The notes under the pieces were generated by a model. It worked only from the letters and a program-made list of their open reading frames with translations. It made no database searches and was not told the origin of the DNA. From contig JAPPOV010000018.1 of assembly GCA_028873595.1 (NCBI GenBank), forward strand, positions 62,001-126,000: DNA of 64,000 bases, given 5' to 3'. This document shows positions 24,117 through 51,826 of the stretch, piece after piece. Numbering within the stretch: position 1 is the stretch's first letter; each line of letters starts with the position of its first letter. Source of the stretch: Gemmatimonadota bacterium (GTDB taxonomy: Bacteria > Gemmatimonadota > Gemmatimonadetes > Longimicrobiales > Gaopeijiaceae). The position numbers were made by a program, and so were the translations under genes.

Positions 24117-26387
24117 ATGTCCGACCGCCGCCAGGAAGCGCTCGACTACCACGAGGAAGGACGTCCCGGAAAGATCGCAATCGTTCCGACGAAGTCGGTC
24201 GTGACGGCGAGGGACCTCACGCTCGCCTACTCACCTGGCGTCGCCGCGCCGTGTCTGGAGATCGCGGAGCATCCTGACGACGTCTTCCGTTATACGGCTC
24301 GTGGGAATCTCGTGGCGGTCGTGTCCAACGGAACCGCTGTTCTGGGACTCGGCAACATCGGCCCGATGGCATCGAAGCCCGTCATGGAGGGCAAGGGCGT
24401 CCTCTTCAAGAGCTTCGCCGACATCGACGTCTTTGATCTCGAGGTCGGTTCGGAGAAGGCAGAGGACATGATCCGCTTCTGTGAGCTGCTCGAACCCACG
24501 GTGGGCGGGATCAACCTTGAAGACATTTCGGCGCCAGACTGCTTCGTGATCGAGCGAACGCTCAAAGAGCGCCTCGATATACCGGTCTTTCACGACGATC
24601 AGCACGGAACGGCGATTATCGCAGCCGCGGCGCTCATCAACGCGCTTCGGATCACCCACCGGACGATCGAAGACGTACAAGTGGTCTTCAGTGGCGCGGG
24701 CGCCTCGGCCCTGTCCACCGCCGAGCACTTTCGGCGTCTGGGCGTTCCGAAGGAGAACATCCTCATCGTGGACTCGAAAGGTGTCATCTACGAGGGCCGC
24801 GACGAGGGGATGAACCAGTACAAGGCGCCGTTCGCGGTCAGAACGGACCGGCGCACGCTGGCCGAGGCGTTCGAGGGTGCCGACGTCTTCGTGGGCCTGT
24901 CGGTGAAGGGGCTTGTGTCGAAGGAGATGGTGAAATCGATGGCCCCGAATCCGATCATCTTCGCACTCGCCAATCCCGATCCGGAAATTCTTCCTGAAGA
25001 CGTAGCATCCGTTCGGGATGACGCGATCATGGCGACGGGCCGGTCGGATTATCCCAACCAGGTGAACAATGTCCTTGGTTTCCCCTTCATCTTCCGAGGC
25101 GCACTCGATGTTCGGGCCAAGAGTATCAACGAGGACATGATGCTCGCCGCGACCGACGCACTGGCTGACCTCGCACGCAAACAGGTGCCAGAGTCGGTCA
25201 AAGGTGCTTACGAAGGGACGGACATCACCTTCGGGCGTGAGTATTTGATCCCCAAGCCTTTTGATCGTCGTGTCCTGTATCACGTCGCTCCGGCCGTAGC
25301 TGAGGCCGCGATGAAGTCCGGGGTCGCCCGTATCGATGTTGACCTCGGTGAATACCGGGACCGTCTGCGTGCGAAACTCGGGCCGGGATACGAGGTCATG
25401 CGGGACATGCGTGATCGCGCACGCACGCGTAAGGCTCGTGTGGTGTTTCCGGAGGGGCACAACGACACGATCATCCGAGCTGCCGGCCAGTTGGTTGCGG
25501 ATGGGATCTGTCACCCGGTTCTGCTCGGTCGCGCCCCGAGAATTGCCGAGAAGGCCGAAGGACTCGGTGTGGATCTGAAGGGTGTGGAGATCATCTATGC
25601 CGCTGAGCTCGACGCGGACCGGGATCGGTACGCCGGTCAGCTCTTCGAGAAGCGTGCTCGAAAAGGCATGACGCTCTCCGAGGCGGAGTGGAACCTCTTC
25701 AAGCCGATCTACTTCGGGGCCAGCATGGTCGAGAACGGAGAGGTCGACGCACTGGTGGCGGGTATCGAAGCGAACTATGGGGAAGCTCTGCGGCCGTGTC
25801 TGCACGTGATTGGGCCGCGGCCGGGCGGTACGGGGCGCGTGGCCGGTCTATACATGCTCGCGTTCCCGAATCGAGAGCTGCTCTTCTTTTCGGACACAAC
25901 GGTGAACATCGAGCCCGACGCCCGGGGGCTGGCCGAAATCGCGCTACAGGCCGCGGACTTTGTTCGTGATCTCGGCATCACGCCTCGGGTGGCGATGGTC
26001 ACGTTTTCCAATTTTGGCTCGGCCGTCCACGATGAATCGGTGCGGGTTGCCGCCGCGGTAGACATGGTGCGGACGATGGACCCGAGTCTGGAAGTCGATG
26101 GAGAGATGCACGCCGACAACGCTGTCGACTTCACGAAGTTGCAGAAGAACTACCCCTTCGCCCGTCTCACCGGACCGGCCAACATTCTCGTCTTCTCCCG
26201 ACTTTCGGCCGCGAATGCCGCCTTCAAGCTCCTGGACGAGCTGGGTGGAGCGGATGTAATCGGCCCGGTCCTGCTCGGGATGGCCAAGCCCGTCCACCTT
26301 CTCCAGCGCGCCTCGAGCCTCGGCAACGTCATCGACCTCGCGACGGTGGCATCCGTGGACTGGCAGGCCCGAAGCCAGCAGCTCTGA
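24117..26387 (+). CDS. maeB: NADP-dependent malic enzyme with C-terminal phosphotransacetylase-like domain
   Basis: 756 residues, the MaeB size. Residues about 1-420 are the malic enzyme, which decarboxylates malate to pyruvate: LTLAYSPGVAAPCLEIA, GLGNIGPMASKPVMEGKGVL, the metal-site DCFVIERTLKERLDIPVFHD, HDDQHGTAIIAAAAL, FSGAGASALS and IFALANPDPEI. Residues about 430-756 follow the phosphate acetyl/butyryltransferase fold (RARKARVVFPEGH; VEGEMH-like LEVDGEMHADNAV; PANILVFSRLSAANAAFKLL), which in MaeB is regulatory. Start ATG at 24117. The stop overlaps the ATG of a 56-codon open frame. Confidence 0.95.
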   Translation: MSDRRQEALDYHEEGRPGKIAIVPTKSVVTARDLTLAYSPGVAAPCLEIAEHPDDVFRYTARGNLVAVVSNGTAVLGLGNIGPMASKPVMEGKGVLFKSFADIDVFDLEVGSEKAEDMIRFCELLEPTVGGINLEDISAPDCFVIERTLKERLDIPVFHDDQHGTAIIAAAALINALRITHRTIEDVQVVFSGAGASALSTAEHFRRLGVPKENILIVDSKGVIYEGRDEGMNQYKAPFAVRTDRRTLAEAFEGADVFVGLSVKGLVSKEMVKSMAPNPIIFALANPDPEILPEDVASVRDDAIMATGRSDYPNQVNNVLGFPFIFRGALDVRAKSINEDMMLAATDALADLARKQVPESVKGAYEGTDITFGREYLIPKPFDRRVLYHVAPAVAEAAMKSGVARIDVDLGEYRDRLRAKLGPGYEVMRDMRDRARTRKARVVFPEGHNDTIIRAAGQLVADGICHPVLLGRAPRIAEKAEGLGVDLKGVEIIYAAELDADRDRYAGQLFEKRARKGMTLSEAEWNLFKPIYFGASMVENGEVDALVAGIEANYGEALRPCLHVIGPRPGGTGRVAGLYMLAFPNRELLFFSDTTVNIEPDARGLAEIALQAADFVRDLGITPRVAMVTFSNFGSAVHDESVRVAAAVDMVRTMDPSLEVDGEMHADNAVDFTKLQKNYPFARLTGPANILVFSRLSAANAAFKLLDELGGADVIGPVLLGMAKPVHLLQRASSLGNVIDLATVASVDWQARSQQL

Positions 26388-42885: not shown

Positions 42886-42938
42886 AGGTGTCGTGTTCGG
42901 CTATGGGGGTGCTGTCCCGTGAGGGATATACTGCGAGG

Positions 42939-44237
42939 ATGACGATGACCGGCTCCGAAAAACTGATCCGCGACCCGCTCTGGGAAACGATCCGCCTGGA
43001 TCCGACGGCGGTGCGTATCGTCGACACGGCGGAGTTCCAGAGGCTGCGCTATATCCGTCAACTCGGCCTGGCCCATCTCGTCTATCCCGGGGCGACGCAC
43101 ACGCGGTTCGATCATGCGCTCGGGGTCTACCACCTCACTCGCACTGCGCTCAATCATCTGCGTGCGCGTGGAGGTGTGCCTCCGGAAGCCTGGGAAGACG
43201 AGGAACTCATTCCCTATGCGGCCCTGCTGCACGATATCGGGCACTACGCGTACTCTCATGCGCTTGAAGAACTCGAGACCGAGCATTTGCCGGCACATCA
43301 CGAAGAGGTCAGTCAGCGCTTCTTCGCGTCGCCGTCCCTGCGCGATGCGCTCGCACCACTCGGTCTCAGCGCGCCGGAGCGTCTTGCAGAGCTGATCCGT
43401 GGCGACAGCGAGAGTCCGCTTCGTGGTCTGATCAGCGGCAGTCTGGATCTGGACAAGATGGAGTATCTGCGTCGGGACGCCCGATTTAGCGGTGTCCCCT
43501 ACGGTGAAGTCGATGTATCACGCCTGCTCGAGGGTCTGATGCTCTTGCCCGACCCGGAAAGTGGTCGCTATGAGGTCGGCGTACACGAGAAGGCGATTGC
43601 GGCGCTCGAGTCGCTGCTCTTCGCCAAGTACCAGATGTTCCGAAACGTCTACTGGCATCACGCCGTTCGTGCGGCGACCGGGTTGTACAAGCGCATCGTC
43701 GAGGAGGCGGTGCGCGGAGGACTGCTGGATTCTGAAGAGCTCATCGGGCCGACGGATGAGGAACTACTCTACGAGATCGGTCGCCGTGGTCGTGATTCGG
43801 ACGACGTGATCGGCGAACGCATCGCGAACCGCTGGATTCCGGCGCTGCGGCATCGAAAGCTCCCGAAGCGAGCGCTCGAGTTGACCGCGGCCGATCTCGC
43901 CGGCCGACAGGTCGAAGACTGGGCCGTCGGTGATTCGCCCTGGAAGCGGGCGGTCGAGGATGATCTCGCCGAAGAGCTCGGGCTCGAGTCGGGCGAAGTC
44001 ATCATCGACTTCCCGGTGAAACCGGCGATGTTCCAGCTTGATCTGCTGATCGAGCGGCGGGATGGTCGGGTACAACGCCTCGGGCTCGAAGGGGTCAAAG
44101 GGGTCCTCGACCTGCCGAAGGTCACCCGCGAACTCTACACCACCGCCCGTGTCCTGCGCGTGTTCACGTTCGACCGGCGAGAAGTGTCTGCGGAGCAGGT
44201 GCTTGATCGAATTACGAGACCGATCGGCGCGACGTGA
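42939..44237 (+). CDS. HD-superfamily phosphohydrolase (dGTPase/SAMHD1-like)
   Basis: 432 residues from the ATG at 42939; an in-frame ATG at 42888 would leave only two bases to the divergent gene, so the inner start is preferred. The opening LIRDPLWETIRLDPTAVRIV and EFQRLRYIRQLGLAHLVYPG lead to the metal site: THTRFDHALGVYHL and YAALLHDIGHYAYSHALEEL (H...HD). A further Asp lies in ISGSLDLDKMEYLRRDA. These are the motifs of dNTP triphosphohydrolase-related HD enzymes. Such proteins cut dNTPs or nucleotide messengers; the exact substrate is not evident. The C-terminal 150 residues are helical. Confidence 0.87.
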   Translation: MTMTGSEKLIRDPLWETIRLDPTAVRIVDTAEFQRLRYIRQLGLAHLVYPGATHTRFDHALGVYHLTRTALNHLRARGGVPPEAWEDEELIPYAALLHDIGHYAYSHALEELETEHLPAHHEEVSQRFFASPSLRDALAPLGLSAPERLAELIRGDSESPLRGLISGSLDLDKMEYLRRDARFSGVPYGEVDVSRLLEGLMLLPDPESGRYEVGVHEKAIAALESLLFAKYQMFRNVYWHHAVRAATGLYKRIVEEAVRGGLLDSEELIGPTDEELLYEIGRRGRDSDDVIGERIANRWIPALRHRKLPKRALELTAADLAGRQVEDWAVGDSPWKRAVEDDLAEELGLESGEVIIDFPVKPAMFQLDLLIERRDGRVQRLGLEGVKGVLDLPKVTRELYTTARVLRVFTFDRREVSAEQVLDRITRPIGAT

Positions 44238-45557: not shown

Positions 45558-46481
45558 ATGACTGATCCTCGGCGCAGCTCCGGTGTGGTTCACGAGACCG
45601 GCGGGGGCGTCTACACCGTGTTCCTCGAGGACGGTCGACGTGTCGAGGCTTCGATCCGTGGTCGGCTGAAACGTGAACAGCGGACCGGAAACCGGGTCGT
45701 GATCGGCGATGAGGTCGAGGTGCATATGGATGGCGAGGTGGCCACCATAGAGTCCGTGCTTGAACGCCGAACCGAGCTGGTCCGTCGGGGCCGGGGGCGG
45801 GCTGCGAAAATCCTTGCAGCGAACCTCGATCGGGTCTACGTCGTGATCGCGCTCAGGGAGCCACGCGGTTCTACGCAGATCATCGATCGAATGCTCGTGC
45901 TCGTCGAGTCGAGCGGAATGCATCCAGTTCTGGTGCTCAACAAGATCGACCTCGACGAGACCGAGGATGCCGCTGAAGCATGGTCGGATCTGTACCGATC
46001 GGTGGGTTACCGGGTCCTCCTGACGAGCGCGGAGTCGGGGCGCGGCGTTCCGGAACTCCACGCTGAAATGTGCACCGGAATCTCGGCGCTCATCGGTCCG
46101 TCCGGTGTCGGGAAGTCGACGCTCCTCAATGCGGTCGATCCGGGCCTTGAACTGCGCACCGGAGCGTTGTCACGCAAGACGGGGACCGGGCGACACACGA
46201 CGGTCGGTTCCCGGCTGATCACGTTGACGTGTGGAGGTCTGGTTGCCGACACGCCGGGCTTCGGCGATGTCGGATTGTGGTCCGTGGACGGCGAGGTGAT
46301 CGGAGCATGTTTCCCCGAGTTCGATGAGCTGGCCGAGGGATGTCGGTTCCGAGGGTGCACCCATCTGCACGAGCCTGGTTGTGCGGTACGCGAGGCACTC
46401 GAGGATGGCCAGCTCGCGCGGTCACGATACGAGAGTTACTCCCTGCTTCGAAGGGAAGCCGAAGAGCACAGAGAGTACTAG
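45558..46481 (+). CDS. rsgA: Ribosome small-subunit-dependent GTPase A
   Basis: 307 residues. RsgA checks and matures the 30S ribosomal subunit in the cytoplasm. The N-terminal OB fold (GGGVYTVFLEDGRRVEASIR) precedes a circularly permuted GTPase, whose motifs appear in the order G4 (LVLNKIDL), G5, G1 (IGPSGVGKSTLLNA), G2 (GRHTTVGSRLI), G3 (VADTPGFGDVG). This order is the family hallmark. The C-terminus has the zinc-binding cluster CRFRGCTHLHEPGC. ATG at 45558. The gene is 84 bases downstream of the sigma factor and is convergent with the lipoprotein gene at 46510. Confidence 0.95.
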   Translation: MTDPRRSSGVVHETGGGVYTVFLEDGRRVEASIRGRLKREQRTGNRVVIGDEVEVHMDGEVATIESVLERRTELVRRGRGRAAKILAANLDRVYVVIALREPRGSTQIIDRMLVLVESSGMHPVLVLNKIDLDETEDAAEAWSDLYRSVGYRVLLTSAESGRGVPELHAEMCTGISALIGPSGVGKSTLLNAVDPGLELRTGALSRKTGTGRHTTVGSRLITLTCGGLVADTPGFGDVGLWSVDGEVIGACFPEFDELAEGCRFRGCTHLHEPGCAVREALEDGQLARSRYESYSLLRREAEEHREY

Positions 46482-46509
46482 ACTGCCTCGAGGGATTGGG
46501 GCGTTTCAG

Positions 46510-47478
46510 TCAGGAACTCGGGCAGCTGTCCTGGTAGCTTCGGACCCACTCGTCGCCGTCCCGGCTGAGTGCAGCGAACCAGCGCCGGTCACTGCCGAAC
46601 ACATCCAGCAGGATTTCGTCGGCGCCGTCACCATCCCAGTCGAAATGGTCGAAGTAGCGCGCTGCAGCCTTCCCATCCGTAGCTGCGTCGTGGTACCACG
46701 TGTAGGCCTCGGTGTACCCTGCGCCGCTCTGGTGGCCCAGGACGAAGAGGGAGTACGCGCCCTGACCAGGGCTTCCGACTTCCAGTTCGTCGTCGATCAT
46801 GAAGGTGGCGGCGATCGACTGGCCCGGTGTGTTTCGAAGCTGGAACGCCTGGATGTGGTCTCGGGCGTCGAGTGTCCCGAGTTCCGGCCAGCGCGCGCCG
46901 TATCGCGGGATCGCGTCTCCGGCGATCGCCAGGGTCGCGACCCGCTGATCGTATACGTGCGAAATCTGGTGGTACTCCTCGTACGGTCGATCGATTTCGG
47001 TAGCCGGCATCGCAAGGAGTCGCTCGGCCTCGGACGCTGTTGCGACGAGTTCGACGATGCCGTTGATCTGGGTGCGGGGACCGCAGTATCCGATCGCGTC
47101 GCGTGCCGACTCGACGATCAACCGTCCGACCCGAACGCCTTCGGAGAACACTGCCCATTCCGTACCGGGTACGGTCAATTCCGCGATACGCTCAGCGTCG
47201 TCGTTGAAGCGTGGGTCGGGGAAGGGGCGAAGCGCGTCGGGATGCACCTCCCCGACGACGAAGAAACGGCCGCGATTACCGTCGCGTACCCCGGCCAGTA
47301 GAAGTGGCTCGTGCACGTTCACCGGGCCCGTCGTCTCGGTCGGCGCGACGTCGACCACAGCCGGGCGGTTGGCGGGTTCGGGCGGCCGGAGGGCGACCTG
47401 AATGCCGCCGAACTCCACGTTGTCGCAGCCGGTACCCGCGGTTAAGATCACCGCCACCATTAGTAAGTGCTTTCGCAT
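46510..47478 (-). CDS. Hypothetical lipoprotein with FG-GAP-like motif
   Basis: 322 residues from the ATG at 47478, chosen because MRKHLLMVAVILTAGTGC gives a signal peptide with the lipidated Cys at residue 18. An ATG ten codons upstream (47508) has a comparable ribosome-binding site and is also possible. The mature protein is mixed alpha/beta. Near the C-terminus FDWDGDGADEILLDVFG is a calcium-binding FG-GAP/VCBS-type motif as found in surface repeat proteins. I cannot name a family. Convergent with rsgA and divergent from the flavin reductase gene; the 91-base gap carries the promoters. Confidence 0.6.
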   Translation of the reverse strand: MRKHLLMVAVILTAGTGCDNVEFGGIQVALRPPEPANRPAVVDVAPTETTGPVNVHEPLLLAGVRDGNRGRFFVVGEVHPDALRPFPDPRFNDDAERIAELTVPGTEWAVFSEGVRVGRLIVESARDAIGYCGPRTQINGIVELVATASEAERLLAMPATEIDRPYEEYHQISHVYDQRVATLAIAGDAIPRYGARWPELGTLDARDHIQAFQLRNTPGQSIAATFMIDDELEVGSPGQGAYSLFVLGHQSGAGYTEAYTWYHDAATDGKAAARYFDHFDWDGDGADEILLDVFGSDRRWFAALSRDGDEWVRSYQDSCPSS

Positions 47479-47568: not shown

Positions 47569-48057
47569 ATGGACCAGCAATCGGACCGAAACGCCTCGCT
47601 CCGCGAGGTCATGAGCTCCTACCCGACGGGCGTCACGATCGTTGCCGCGCGGGAGGGGGACGGTGAGCCATTCGGCCTCACTGTGAACTCCTTCACATCT
47701 CTGTCGCTCGATCCTCCTCTGGTGCTCGTGTGTATCGCCCTCTGCGCCACGTCACATGATCGGCTGATCTCCTCGGATGCGTTCTCGGTCAACATGCTTG
47801 CGGGAGACCAGGCACCCATCGCGAAGCGATTCGCGACTGACCCTTCGGAGGGTCGTTTCGAGGGTGTCGGATGGAGGCCTGGAGAACTCGGAACTCCACT
47901 CATCGACGGGTCGATGGCCACCCTCGAGTGCTGTCGTTACGAGGTGCTTCACGGTGGGGATCATTCGATCTTGATCGGTCGGGTCGAGCATTTGGCGATG
48001 ACCGAACGTGATGCGCTCGTTTATCACCGAGGCCTCCTCAGCACGTCGGGCGGATGA
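47569..48057 (+). CDS. Flavin reductase-like domain protein
   Basis: 162 residues from the ATG at 47569; an in-frame GTG at 47542 would add nine residues. The fold is the FMN-binding split barrel of flavin reductases: REVMSSYPTGVTIVAAREGD, FGLTVNSFTSLSLDPPLVLV (the G-x-T-x-x-S-x-x-S-x-x-P-P-L signature), FSVNMLAGDQ and, near the end, ILIGRVEHL. Members reduce FMN or FAD with NAD(P)H and often feed a monooxygenase. No monooxygenase is nearby. The stop overlaps the next ATG by four bases (ATGA), the first link of a three-gene overlapping operon. Confidence 0.88.
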   Translation: MDQQSDRNASLREVMSSYPTGVTIVAAREGDGEPFGLTVNSFTSLSLDPPLVLVCIALCATSHDRLISSDAFSVNMLAGDQAPIAKRFATDPSEGRFEGVGWRPGELGTPLIDGSMATLECCRYEVLHGGDHSILIGRVEHLAMTERDALVYHRGLLSTSGG

Positions 48058-49322
48058 CTCGCCGACTCCCGCGGATGGAGTGGATCCCCCCGCTCTTCGT
48101 GGGTGCGTCGGCTGCGATCGCAGCCGAGGTGGCGCTGTCCCTGCTTCTGTACGATGGCCCCGGTCTCGTCCGTTCGCTTACCACGATCCTGGGTGTTGAG
48201 GGGTTCGCATTCGCCGCAGGGCTCTGGAGTGCTCCTGGACCGGGGCGTGATCTGATCGATCGAGTCCGCCGACGTTGGAGCCTTGGGCTGATCGCCTTTC
48301 TCGTGGCCGCGGCGTACGGCTCGGCCTGGACGTTCGTATCACCACTGGGAGAAGGGCGCCTGGGGCAGGCGTTGGGTCTCGTGGTGATGGGTGCCGTGCC
48401 TCTGTACGCTATGGGATCCGTGCTCGGGGGCATGAGCTCGGCGGCCGTCACCGATGAGGGCGGCCGGCTCTCGGGGCCGGGTGCGGCGGCGGCTGCAGGG
48501 GCGGCCCTGGGCTTCGTGCTCACGGGCCTTCTGCTCCCTCGAGTGCCGATGCCTGGCACGATGCTGGTCGGCTGCCTGCTCCTCCTCTCCGTTGGGGGCC
48601 TGATCTATGGCTCGGTGCTCGGATCACGCACGGAGATCTTTGTCGAAGCGCGCCGTCGGTCGGCAAACGGCGAGGTTCGGGTGCAAGAGCGTCACCTGGA
48701 ATCGGAAGATGTCTCGCACCTGGAGTTGTTCGAGGGTGAGTTCCTGCGCAGGTCTCTGGACACAGGCCCTGGCGAGCCGAAGACACCATGGGACGTGACG
48801 GCGATACGTACCTTGATGCCGCCGTCCGAATCCCCCTGGCGTCTGCTCTACGTCGGAGGTGGGGCGTCGTCCGCACCCCGCAATCTGATCCGCGAGCATC
48901 CCGCTGCCGAAGTCGACGTAGCGGAACGCACGGCTGCGGTAGTGGAGCTCGGGCGGGAGTATTTCGACACGGAGCTCTCGGTCGACTCGAGCGAACGCAG
49001 GGCGGTTGCCGTGGGGAATCTCGATGATCTGATCGCGTCGGTGCGAACGACGTACGATGCAATCGTCATTGATCTCGCTGCGCTTGCCTCGATCGGGGGG
49101 ATCCGGGGTCTCTCGCGTGCCACCGTGTGGCGTATCGTCGATGCGCTCAATCCGGGTGGGGTTCTTCTGCTCGGTCCCGACCCCATCGAGTTCACGTCCA
49201 CCGAATTCGAGCAGTTGAACCGAGTACCCATCGATGTCGATGGAGCCGCATTGACCTTGTTCTGCAGAGATCCGCTTCATGATGCGGTGGTGGGCCGGTT
49301 CAAGGGAACGATGTCGCCGTGA
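48054..49322 (+). CDS. Membrane protein with C-terminal spermidine-synthase-like domain
   Basis: 422 residues. Residues about 10-190 contain six to seven hydrophobic helices with many Gly and Ala (EVALSLLLY; LGLIAFLVAAAYGSAW; LGLVVMGAVPLYAMGSVLGG; AAAAAGAALGFVLTGLLLP; LVGCLLLLSVGGLIYGSVLG). Residues about 215-420 look like a Rossmann methyltransferase-type fold: LLYVGGGASSAPRNLIREHP, DVAERTAAVVELGREYF and YDAIVIDLAALASI. The order of membrane part then SpeE-like domain is known in fused spermidine-synthase-like proteins. The polyamine-binding residues of true SpeE are not evident, so activity is uncertain. It overlaps its neighbours by four bases on both sides. Confidence 0.7.
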   Translation: MTRRLPRMEWIPPLFVGASAAIAAEVALSLLLYDGPGLVRSLTTILGVEGFAFAAGLWSAPGPGRDLIDRVRRRWSLGLIAFLVAAAYGSAWTFVSPLGEGRLGQALGLVVMGAVPLYAMGSVLGGMSSAAVTDEGGRLSGPGAAAAAGAALGFVLTGLLLPRVPMPGTMLVGCLLLLSVGGLIYGSVLGSRTEIFVEARRRSANGEVRVQERHLESEDVSHLELFEGEFLRRSLDTGPGEPKTPWDVTAIRTLMPPSESPWRLLYVGGGASSAPRNLIREHPAAEVDVAERTAAVVELGREYFDTELSVDSSERRAVAVGNLDDLIASVRTTYDAIVIDLAALASIGGIRGLSRATVWRIVDALNPGGVLLLGPDPIEFTSTEFEQLNRVPIDVDGAALTLFCRDPLHDAVVGRFKGTMSP

Positions 49323-51826
49323 TCATCGCGCATCTCTCCGATCTGCATCTCGGCTTTCGCGCCTACGGACGCGTGGAGCGCGGTACGGACATGCGGGAGC
49401 GTGACGTTGCCGCCGCGTTCGAGCGAGCCGTTCAGCAGCTGATCAAGCTTCGTCCGGACGTCATTGTCGTGGCGGGTGATGTGTTTGATCGACCAGACCC
49501 GCCGGCGAGTGCAGTCGTCGCGCTCGCCAGGGGTCTCGAGGCCATGAATACTGCACTCCCTGAGACGCGTGTGCTCATGGTCGCCGGGCCGAGGGATACC
49601 CCGCGCCGCTCGGGCGACCCGGGAGCGCTGGCTGTACTCGACACCTTTGCCAACGTCGACGCCGTAACCGCGCGAACGCACACAATCAAGATCGAGCGAC
49701 TCGGGCTGCATGCGTGTCTGGTTCCGTACCGCGCCGTCGTTCGGAATGCTCCCCCGCTCCCAGATCCTGACCCGCGCATGCGGTGGAATCTTCTGGTCAT
49801 GCATGCTGAAGCAGCGCGCGGAGGGGACGAGGGAATCCTCATCGATCCCGCCGAATGGGACTACGTCGCGCTCGGTGGCGAGCACCGAAGAAGAACACTT
49901 TCGGACCGGGTCAGGTATCCCGGCTCACTCGAACGCGTAGCGCTCGACCCCTGGGGGGAGGCGGCGGACGAAAAGGGCTTCCTCACGGTCGACCTCGAGT
50001 CCGGTCACGTCTCCTTTCACTCGATCCCCGGTCGACCGGTCGTCGCGCTCGCACCTGTGAAGGTCGGGCCCGGTGATCCCGATCGGCTGCGCCGCCGCGT
50101 CAGCGAAGTTCTCAGGGAGGTTCCGGGTGGAATCACGGACAAGATCGTCCGGCTACGCCTTCAGGGGGCAAGGCCGCACGACCTGCTCGCACTCCAGGGT
50201 GAGCCGCTTCGAGCCCTGAGGGGAGAGGCCCTTCATCTGGCCGTGGAAGCCGGCAAGGATATCGAGGTGCCAGCGGAGGCGTGGCTTCCTGTCGATGCGG
50301 CCCCCCAGGTCCGGGAGGCGGTACTCGCCGAGCTCGTCCGTGACGGCCAGGAAAGCCAAGAAGTCAGGGCGCTCGTGCATGAGCTTCTGCCGAACGACGC
50401 ACCGACTGCGCTGGACACTCCGATAGGCCAGGGGGAGGCGCTCGACGGTGCAGTGCAGGGTGTCGGACGAGTCAGTACATCCATCCCGCGAGGACTCACT
50501 GCCGTCCTCGGAGGAGGAGGTCGCGCGCGCCGAGCCGTGGCGGACCTCTTCACTCGAGAGGGTCGCGCCAGCGCTGACTCGGCGATTGCGCGATGGTGGG
50601 CGGGTGCAAAGGCCGAGACGTTGGACGGTGCGCTGCGTCGAGCGGTCGATGCCGTCGCGGAGAGTCGTGGCATGGGTTTGGTGGACACGGCCCTCGAATC
50701 CATGGGGGCCAGGATGCCCTCGGCACCGACACGTGGCCCGCGAGAGCGACCTCTGCGCGGAGCGGTGCGGATCGACCCCGAGCAGGTAGCCGCCGAATTC
50801 CGCACAGCGCAGCGTGAGCTGCTCGAAAGTCGGGCAGATGTCACTGAGGTGGACGGGGACCTCGAGGTCGCCACGATGGACTGGCTGCGGGAACGGCAGG
50901 ACGCGGAAACGACGCTCTTTGCGTACCGGGACCGGGCTCGCGAGCTGCGCAGTCGTATCCGGAGCATGGAGTCGGCCGGTCCGGAGGCTCCGTGCCCCAC
51001 GTGCGGCCGGGTTCTGGAGAGCCACTACGAGGAGGTGCTGGCTGAGCTTCGTGACGACTGGGAGTCGGTCGTCCAGGATGGGAGCTGGTGGAAGAGTCGA
51101 TGGGAGCAGCTCGAGTTGAAGCCACAGCACCTGCAGGATCTCGAGCGCACCTCGCTGAGACTTCACGCGGCGGTGGAGGCCGGGTCCGAGCGGGTCGAGG
51201 TCCTGCGCGCCCGTCTCGAGGAGCTCGAGGGGGGAGTCATCGTGCCACCGCCAGAGCTCGATGACGTGCAGGCGGCGGTGGTCGCGGCGCTGACCCGGGT
51301 ACGCGCGGCTCGGATCGCTCGCGCAACAGACTTACTGCTGGATCGAGGTTCGCGATTCGTTTCTCGCATCTCGGGTGGACGGGTCCTTGCCCTGTCCTTC
51401 GAGGACGGGGCTGTACGGCTACAGGGTAGTGAGGGACCGCTGACGCCGTTGTCCGAGGAAGATCTGGCGGTCGGGCGCATCGCGATCCGGCTTGCGGCTG
51501 CGTCCCTGATTGCCGCGAGGGGTAGAATCGTGGCAAGTCTCGCCATCGAGCAGCCGTTCGACCTGCTCGACGCAGAGGCGCGGATTCGGACTCTCGTGCT
51601 GACGAAGCAACTACTTCGTGAGGTGCCCCGGATCGTGCTCTTCAGTCGTGGAGACGCGGTTGACGTCAGGCCGGAGCTCTTTGATTACGTGCTGGAGGTA
51701 CGGGACGACGGTGCCGTGACAGGACCGGTCCTGCGCCCGGCTTCTGCGGGTCCGGGTCGTCTGGCGATCCGACCGGCACCGGAGGCGGCCCGGACGGAAG
51801 CCGGCCCGAATCTCAGCGGGATCTGA
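49319..51826 (+). CDS. Single-chain SbcD-SbcC (Mre11-Rad50)-like protein with degenerate active sites
   Basis: 835 residues. Residues 1-250 follow SbcD/Mre11: HLSDLHLG (D8, H10), AGDVFDRP (53-58) and MHAEA (H162). The GNHD motif is GPRD (90-93), and the final G-H-x-H motif is GGEH (186-189). Residues about 385-830 resemble a shortened SbcC/Rad50. PRGLTAVLGGGGRARRAVAD sits where the Walker A segment belongs but lacks G-K-S/T. A helical region follows with a zinc-hook-like CPTC (559-562), then TPLSEEDLAVGRIAIRLAAA like the signature motif. ASLAIEQPFDLLDAEARI resembles Walker B with D-E-P changed to E-Q-P. Reading the halves as a fusion is my inference; the altered residues are directly visible. 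Last gene of the overlapping operon. Confidence 0.7.
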   Translation: MIIAHLSDLHLGFRAYGRVERGTDMRERDVAAAFERAVQQLIKLRPDVIVVAGDVFDRPDPPASAVVALARGLEAMNTALPETRVLMVAGPRDTPRRSGDPGALAVLDTFANVDAVTARTHTIKIERLGLHACLVPYRAVVRNAPPLPDPDPRMRWNLLVMHAEAARGGDEGILIDPAEWDYVALGGEHRRRTLSDRVRYPGSLERVALDPWGEAADEKGFLTVDLESGHVSFHSIPGRPVVALAPVKVGPGDPDRLRRRVSEVLREVPGGITDKIVRLRLQGARPHDLLALQGEPLRALRGEALHLAVEAGKDIEVPAEAWLPVDAAPQVREAVLAELVRDGQESQEVRALVHELLPNDAPTALDTPIGQGEALDGAVQGVGRVSTSIPRGLTAVLGGGGRARRAVADLFTREGRASADSAIARWWAGAKAETLDGALRRAVDAVAESRGMGLVDTALESMGARMPSAPTRGPRERPLRGAVRIDPEQVAAEFRTAQRELLESRADVTEVDGDLEVATMDWLRERQDAETTLFAYRDRARELRSRIRSMESAGPEAPCPTCGRVLESHYEEVLAELRDDWESVVQDGSWWKSRWEQLELKPQHLQDLERTSLRLHAAVEAGSERVEVLRARLEELEGGVIVPPPELDDVQAAVVAALTRVRAARIARATDLLLDRGSRFVSRISGGRVLALSFEDGAVRLQGSEGPLTPLSEEDLAVGRIAIRLAAASLIAARGRIVASLAIEQPFDLLDAEARIRTLVLTKQLLREVPRIVLFSRGDAVDVRPELFDYVLEVRDDGAVTGPVLRPASAGPGRLAIRPAPEAARTEAGPNLSGI

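Follow-up and report, generated by a model that had tools for sequence, protein, structure and literature searches.

What becomes of an SbcCD (Mre11-Rad50) complex once the residues with which it cuts DNA and hydrolyses ATP have been lost? The question is raised by one gene in a stretch of 64,000 nucleotides, called the window here, from the genome of a Gemmatimonadota bacterium (contig JAPPOV010000018.1, positions 62,001 to 126,000). Mre11-Rad50, a nearly universal machine for the repair of DNA breaks, is described as working through an ATP-driven engagement of its heads that gates the nuclease. The protein discussed here keeps the Mre11 and Rad50 folds together with the zinc hook, while its catalytic residues are lost: it lacks the second metal site and the catalytic histidine of Mre11, as well as the Walker A lysine, the Walker B aspartate, and the H-loop histidine of Rad50. 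The sbcD-sbcC locus of the window's own bacterial family, designated f1, has probably been converted to a pseudoenzyme, and in this lineage it has been fused to one chain, as follows.

49319..51826, forward strand: whole gene, single-chain SbcD-SbcC (Mre11-Rad50) protein with altered catalytic motifs; 835 amino acids, GTG start codon, homologues with the same architecture.

The frame is uninterrupted over its 835 codons and overlaps by 4 bases the stop of the upstream gene, 48054..49322. Its N-terminal half is Mre11/SbcD-like according to Pfam, NCBIfam, and a sequence search of the PDB, with a phmmer value of 3.9e-12 against 3auz and a match to the NCBIfam model sbcd (TIGR00619) at 1.1e-13 and 51.6 bits, which is below the curated cut-off of 77.65. 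Residues 695-781 match the Rad50 C-lobe (phmmer, 1f2t_B, 7.9e-5), a profile of the C-terminal half finds Rad50 3qkr_B at 1.8e-7, hhalign places the C-lobe on canonical SbcC at 8.8e-46, and a profile built from the f1 family gives 1.1e-20 for Mre11 and 2.6e-8 for Rad50. The full chain gave a high-confidence AlphaFold2 (AF2) model that matches Mre11 and Rad50 structures, with the Mre11 phosphodiesterase fold and its cap, followed by a predicted ABC-type (ATP-binding cassette) head split by a coiled coil. The structural alignment to Mre11 3av0_A runs up to residue 363; Rad50 is one of the 50 structural matches listed, at rank 46, in a list filled by one domain, in which the parts outside residues 1-316 are barely tested. 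The initial annotation, made from the sequence alone, had proposed an SbcD-like N-terminus, which the Mre11/SbcD matches and the Mre11 fold of the model bear out, and ABC head halves around a coiled coil in residues 380-830, which the AF2 model and the structural comparison likewise predict. The motifs it had named, namely D8/H10, GDVFD 53-57, GPRD 90-93, H162, and GGEH 186-189 in the first half, and GGGGRARR 398-405, CPTC 559-562, LSEEDL 711-716, and EQP 744-746 in the second, are all where it had placed them.

Whether these changes belong to one gene or to a lineage was addressed by comparison. A homologue search of 98 genomes gave a match in 76, and 116 f1 genomes were searched with the canonical SbcC and SbcD of family f3. 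Residues were counted over 88 f1 Mre11-like halves from 87 genomes and 88 f1 Rad50-like halves, with an outgroup of 13 genomes from the same order or class (families f2, f3, f6, and f7), of which 12 have a Rad50 half; f1 genomes with a match that lie outside the fetched set include G104, G127, G151, G153, and G156-G160. The Mre11-half rows comprise 56 fused, 29 split, and 3 partial ones, and 7 of the 105 architecture entries are partial. G036 is counted as split, probably through a masking artefact, its congeners G103, G116, G125, and G130 being fused. The tree and the identity counts leave out G021b (a second, partial copy), G036, G154, and EcSbcD, and partial rows are excluded from arm-length and identity counts. 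Measured from the conserved start, the fused f1 chains have 689-934 residues.

The Mre11-like half contains the following parts.

49319..50038, forward strand: Mre11/SbcD phosphodiesterase fold, residues 1-240.
49340..49348, forward strand: ligands D8 and H10 of metal site 1, retained (87/88 and 86/88 f1 rows).
49475..49489, forward strand: GDVFD 53-57, with metal ligand D54 retained (85/88 f1 rows).
49586..49597, forward strand: GPRD 90-93 replacing GNHD, with a conserved R but without the metal-2 ligand N and the catalytic H (f1 and outgroup counts below).
49874..49885, forward strand: GGEH 186-189 replacing GHxH; first H lost (kept in 6/88 f1 rows), second H, for metal 1, retained (83/88).
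50039..50386, forward strand: Mre11-type cap and helix-loop-helix region, residues 241-356 (AF2 secondary structure, structural alignment).

The assignment of residues to two metal sites, the names of the ligands, and the identity of the catalytic histidine are those that we take to hold from Mre11 biochemistry. At the GNHD place, the alignment of f1 halves has N in 0/88 rows, H in 0/88, and R in 85/88, while all 13 outgroup rows have H, preceded by N in 12 and by E in one. A loose GHxH pattern matches 8/88 f1 rows, compared with the 6/88 of the alignment column. H162 is retained in 50/88 rows; in this column E. coli SbcD is misaligned. The last D of GDVFD was considered as a further lost residue and rejected, as E. 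coli SbcD also has GDVFD.

Metal site 1, on the other hand, persists: its four ligands (D8, H10, D54, H189) are present in the window's protein and together in 83/88 f1 rows. For this reason a changed chemistry, as suggested in the initial annotation, may still apply, and it leads to the main rival explanation, a one-metal phosphodiesterase in which site 1 works and R92 stands in for the catalytic histidine or for the second metal; such an enzyme would act on an unusual phosphodiester and use no ATP. R92 speaks in its favor, because all six arginine codons are used across the 82 scored rows, which means that selection, rather than DNA identity, keeps this residue; a Mre11 structure, 4fbk, also carries a title with one manganese per active site, a title that is silent on activity. 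Against such an enzyme stand the complete loss of the asparagine and histidine of GNHD and the near-complete loss of the first histidine of GHxH, together with three genomes (G029, G099, G115) that have lost site-1 residues despite open frames. G036 is another of the five f1 rows missing a site-1 ligand, and its frame is broken in a masked stretch. We regard this phosphodiesterase as unlikely, though worth keeping in view.

In the second half, losses of the same kind extend over the ATP-binding head.

50420..50701, forward strand: remnant Rad50 N-lobe, residues 368-461 (AF2 strands 374-397, helix 402-415).
50510..50533, forward strand: GGGGRARR 398-405 at the Walker A place (Walker A K and P-loop pattern each 0/88 in f1).
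50777..51226, forward strand: short coiled coil around the hook, residues 487-636 (AF2 helices 487-556, 567-597, 603-636).
50993..51004, forward strand: zinc hook CPTC 559-562 (CxxC in 88/88 f1 rows).
51263..51769, forward strand: Rad50-like C-lobe, residues 649-817, without canonical signature, Walker B, or H-loop (phmmer, profile, hhalign).
51449..51466, forward strand: LSEEDL 711-716 replacing the SGGEED signature.
51548..51556, forward strand: EQP 744-746 replacing the Walker B DE (f1: Walker B D 0/88, with 4 gaps; E 28/88).
51647..51649, forward strand: R777 replacing the H-loop histidine (f1: H 0/88, with 5 gaps).

The Walker A lysine is absent from all 82 f1 rows that have a letter at its position, the other 6 being gaps, and the alignment-free pattern GxxxxGK[ST] is found in all 12 canonical rows and in a separate SbcD-SbcC pair of one f1 genome (G049b, see below). 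A loose signature pattern, SGG[EQ], matches four f1 rows (G032, G101, G044, G148), all away from the signature place, and a loose hydrophobic-DE pattern matches one (G015), away from the Walker B place. Could ATP nevertheless be bound through the non-standard loop GGGGRxRR, with the heads closing without hydrolysis? The model still shows the strand-loop-helix of a P-loop, with a strand at 392-397 and a helix at 402-415, and the window's protein has kept the D-loop aspartate, D751. The loop, however, varies across f1 (GGGGRAR, GERPED, ADGAPEW, GSPDEA), and not only the lysine but also the Walker B aspartate and the H-loop histidine are gone, so that ATP binding of this sort seems very improbable.

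The zinc hook is the sole examined motif kept in every row, and at C559 the codons vary synonymously among f1 rows. Within f1, no stretch of the Rad50-like half is better conserved than residues 495-600, which surround it. The pattern of conservation in the family is thus inverted relative to canonical families: mean pairwise identity in the hook region 495-600 is 56.2% in f1 against 43.5% in canonical proteins, while it is 28.9% against 79.0% in the Walker A region, and 32.3% against 85.0% over the signature and Walker B. The arms have also become shorter. From the Walker A place to the hook the median distance is 375 residues in canonical proteins (373-375, 11 rows) and 165 in f1 (119-232, 81 rows), a shortening that in part reflects residues lost from the N-lobe itself, and from the hook to the signature place the medians are 296 and 150. 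Charge has shifted as well, from -10.8 to -1.1 per 100 residues in the C-lobe and, in the Mre11 cap, from a mean of +5.0 to 0.0, the latter loss arguing against a simply retained DNA binding. When 29 f1 Rad50-like halves were scanned with Pfam, the zinc-hook model matched one member (E 0.01) and four unrelated models turned up once each; the window member's own half gave no match. In all, the evidence supports reading the gene as a fused and much shorter Mre11-Rad50 chain whose two halves show matching losses.

A conserved hook might also serve as the sensor of a zinc- or redox-responsive regulator, as reported for the tRNase RloC. That protein retains an ATPase besides its hook, whereas no effector domain was recognised in the 835-residue protein. 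In favor of a sensor are the invariance of the hook and the precedent of RloC, which is described as a zinc-responsive tRNase (excerpt of PMC2610378). RloC is an ABC protein with a zinc hook. We consider such a role improbable.

The f1 gene is under purifying selection. The ratio of nonsynonymous to synonymous substitution rates (dN/dS) is 0.051 at a dS of 0.49 (G011/G012), 0.084 at a dS of 0.54 (G032/G101), and 0.19-0.20 at a dS of 0.24-0.28 (G004 with G013 and G002), estimates from pairs with dS > 1 being less reliable; when the gene is divided into segments, constraint is weakest in the linker and the N-lobe in most, although not all, pairs. Decay of a single copy was therefore rejected, given the family-wide loss, the low dN/dS, and the invariant hook, and the f1 relatives, which are without the canonical residues too, settle this point as the initial annotation had proposed to settle it. 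A different matter is a slowly decaying relic at the level of the family, whose former work is done by other enzymes and whose hook is the last part to go. The head regions have indeed drifted to about 25-33% identity, and some f1 genomes hold a separate SbcCD. Thus G034, G038, and G117 carry the dead gene along with an E. coli-type pair with intact motifs (L144, L142, and L146, respectively); in these loci and in L143, the SbcC is of the E. coli type, has 946-1076 residues and canonical motifs, and lies next to an SbcD-like frame. G049 has a dead fused gene (L032) and, on another contig, a separate SbcD-SbcC pair (L141), possibly regained, which has GNHD, P-loop, and DE, with GDYH for GHxH, and is 31-40% identical to the f3 proteins. 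In G124, no match to the hook of the dead gene was seen, and a canonical-motif SbcC lies beside an SbcD-like frame, and the 11 g11 genomes listed without a match lack the hook region of the dead gene. A relic is nevertheless hard to reconcile with the low dN/dS, with frames open in 56 fused and 29 split rows, with a CxxC in every row, and with the synonymous codon variation at the conserved R92 and C559.

It is also at odds with the genome of the window, which is estimated to be 94.6% complete, and in which the check for separate sbcC and sbcD genes proposed at the outset found no other SbcC or SbcD among the matches listed for PF13476, TIGR00619, and canonical queries. Its five PF13476 frames are SMC, RecN, RecF, UvrA, and an ABC-transporter-like protein (NCBIfam). 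The sole TIGR00619 match is the 835-codon gene, which is also the one match of the canonical SbcD query; the canonical SbcC query gives three matches, of which the two listed are this gene and SMC. The same genome has two PDDEXK frames (1043 and 1227 residues), and part of the second matches AddA, below the cut-off. Weighing both sides, we see little prospect for the relic.

Where the gene came from can be read from its surroundings. At many f1 loci a flavin reductase gene and a spermidine-synthase-like gene precede it; RsgA and a sigma factor lie farther upstream, and a TMEM260-like gene lies downstream. Eleven outgroup loci were fetched widely as canonical neighbourhoods, and 8 of the 11 share this f1-type neighbourhood: the order is sigma-RsgA-flavin reductase-sbcD-sbcC in G059, flavin reductase-spermidine-synthase-like-sbcD-sbcC in G067, G088, G071, and G079, and flavin reductase-sbcD-sbcC-TMEM260 in G060 and G077; G058 shares TMEM260 only, and G084, G093, and G096 share no neighbour. 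Seven of these loci are in the outgroup motif table, and the other four were checked by pattern, with canonical SbcC motifs in 4/4 and GNHD plus GHxH in 3/4, the exception being G077, whose SbcD frame failed the filter. Because the neighbourhood is common to canonical sbcDC loci, the f1 gene is most likely the same vertically inherited sbcD-sbcC locus, inactivated in place. A mobile or phage origin, as in the fusions reported in 2011, was rejected, since only two weak phage matches were found and the neighbourhood is shared with canonical sbcDC.

As for the fusion, the initial annotation had tied it to the loss, and this link did not hold: the 29 split f1 rows carry the same losses, and fusion as their cause was accordingly rejected. 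On the tree of the Mre11 half, the 85 f1 rows lie on one side of a branch (SH-like approximate likelihood-ratio test, SH-aLRT, 99). The fused/split state has to change 7 times on it, at least 3 of these changes being forced by starred branches; the tree comes from a quick search and carries long-branch warnings, above all for G049b and G014, and the number of fusions is uncertain. As fused and split members share the loss, the sequences are most simply explained if the loss is older than the fusions. In canonical G063, G064, and G069 (L080, L079, L085) and in f1 G014 (L072), a single in-frame stop codon lies between sbcD and sbcC, so that loss of this one codon would join the two genes, a hint that fusion is easily reached.

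Taken together, we consider it slightly better than an even bet that the family holds an ATP-free, nuclease-free SbcCD, whose selected function lies in the hook and the flanking coiled coil, and which was later fused in several lineages. The best overall explanation, to which we assign a probability of about 0.5, is a hook-dimerised, ATP-independent, nuclease-dead scaffold derived from the inherited sbcD-sbcC locus. Two chains would be clamped by zinc through the hook, and the conserved coiled-coil tip, with the Mre11-like folds, would form an ATP-independent scaffold or tether holding partner proteins or DNA; there would be no DNA cutting and no ATP-driven switching, and the remaining single metal site may be structural, or a one-metal centre. 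A metallophosphoesterase fold serving as a scaffold is familiar from VPS29, a subunit of retromer, although VPS29 is unrelated to Mre11 function and has no hook. We infer the zinc-mediated dimerisation from work that describes the Rad50 hook as a module for constitutive dimerisation, for which an SMC hinge can substitute (excerpt of PMC6969161).

Several observations weigh against this scaffold or limit what may be claimed for it. The four ligands of metal site 1, so widely kept, would not be needed by a pure scaffold, and the D-loop aspartate (42/88 f1 rows) and the Walker B glutamate are retained in a part of the family. The hook segment does not always have the lowest dN/dS, two close pairs giving 0.20 and 0.31 for it, and the Mre11 core, residues 1-110, almost equals the hook in identity within f1 (55.2% against 56.2%); since this core is well kept, no exclusive importance is claimed for the hook. 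The N-lobe on its own reaches an hhalign probability of 5-10%, though it lands on the P-loop, and the predicted structure is that of one chain (an AF2 monomer). A second SbcCD could be missing from the incomplete assembly. Finally, a DNA tether would not be favoured over a protein scaffold, because the net positive charge of the cap is lost.

How does this family compare with known systems? Canonical SbcCD, from f2 and f3 of the same order or from E. coli, has the same folds, order of parts, zinc hook, and hook-flanking coiled-coil sequence as f1, but it also has all five catalytic features that f1 lacks and the longer spacings on both sides of the hook. Single-chain Mre11/Rad50 (SbcD/SbcC) proteins have been reported in Mimivirus (R555), a Clostridium kluyveri plasmid, a Deferribacter megaplasmid, and others (excerpt of PMC3175470, Yoshida et al. 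2011), and, like the 835-residue protein, they have the Mre11-like half first and the Rad50-like half second. According to the same excerpt, R555 has Walker A, Walker B, and D-loop motifs, and one P-loop NTPase segment was not observed in the Anaerostipes and Bacillus phage fusions. The window's protein is without ATP-binding Walker motifs. Those fusions are sporadic and often plasmid-borne or viral, whereas the present gene sits at a conserved chromosomal locus with family-wide losses. Fungal Dis3-family pseudonucleases (excerpt of PMC8097288) are likewise a nuclease lineage that lost its activity and was kept as a non-catalytic protein; Dis3, however, is an RNA exonuclease family, and in f1 two enzymes of one complex were lost together. 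No description of a catalytically dead bacterial SbcCD/Mre11-Rad50 clade was found among the matches listed from open-licence PubMed Central. The new architecture announced in the initial annotation can thus be kept in part: the family-wide loss in both halves was not found described, while fusion itself has been known since 2011.

Some other genes of the window deserve mention. The gene just upstream (48054..49322, forward strand) encodes a protein with a weak, sub-threshold spermidine-synthase-like domain and an N-terminal half that is hydrophobic by eye; a gene of this type is a frequent f1 neighbour of the sbcD-sbcC gene. Before it, 46324..47301 (forward strand) has no Pfam or NCBIfam match, is 26-49% identical in relatives, and overlaps the end of RsgA, so its true start may be later. 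Between RsgA and matches to this frame, about 2.5-2.8 kb extra is present in L047, L150, L151, L154, and L159, that is, in other genera and in one genome of the same genus (L154), and it is absent from the window, L043-L045, and L155-L157. Farther upstream, 42888..44237 (forward strand) encodes an HD-domain protein with HD_assoc_2, whose similarity to dGTP triphosphohydrolases stays below threshold and whose identity is 83-93% in the six loci of the same genus in which it was observed, and 24117..26387 (forward strand) joins malic enzyme domains to a phosphate acetyl/butyryl transferase domain, which is an ordinary architecture.

If the scaffold reading is true, this family would provide natural evidence that the hook and the fold have a task of their own, that is, a natural separation of the hook from the Mre11-Rad50 engine. 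The window's protein would then be a compact single chain for studying hook dimerisation or tethering without an ATPase or nuclease background, and the graded series from canonical, to split and dead, to fused and dead proteins may reveal how an enzyme complex becomes a scaffold. For the organisms themselves, these findings suggest that a clasp, rather than an engine, is what these cells need.

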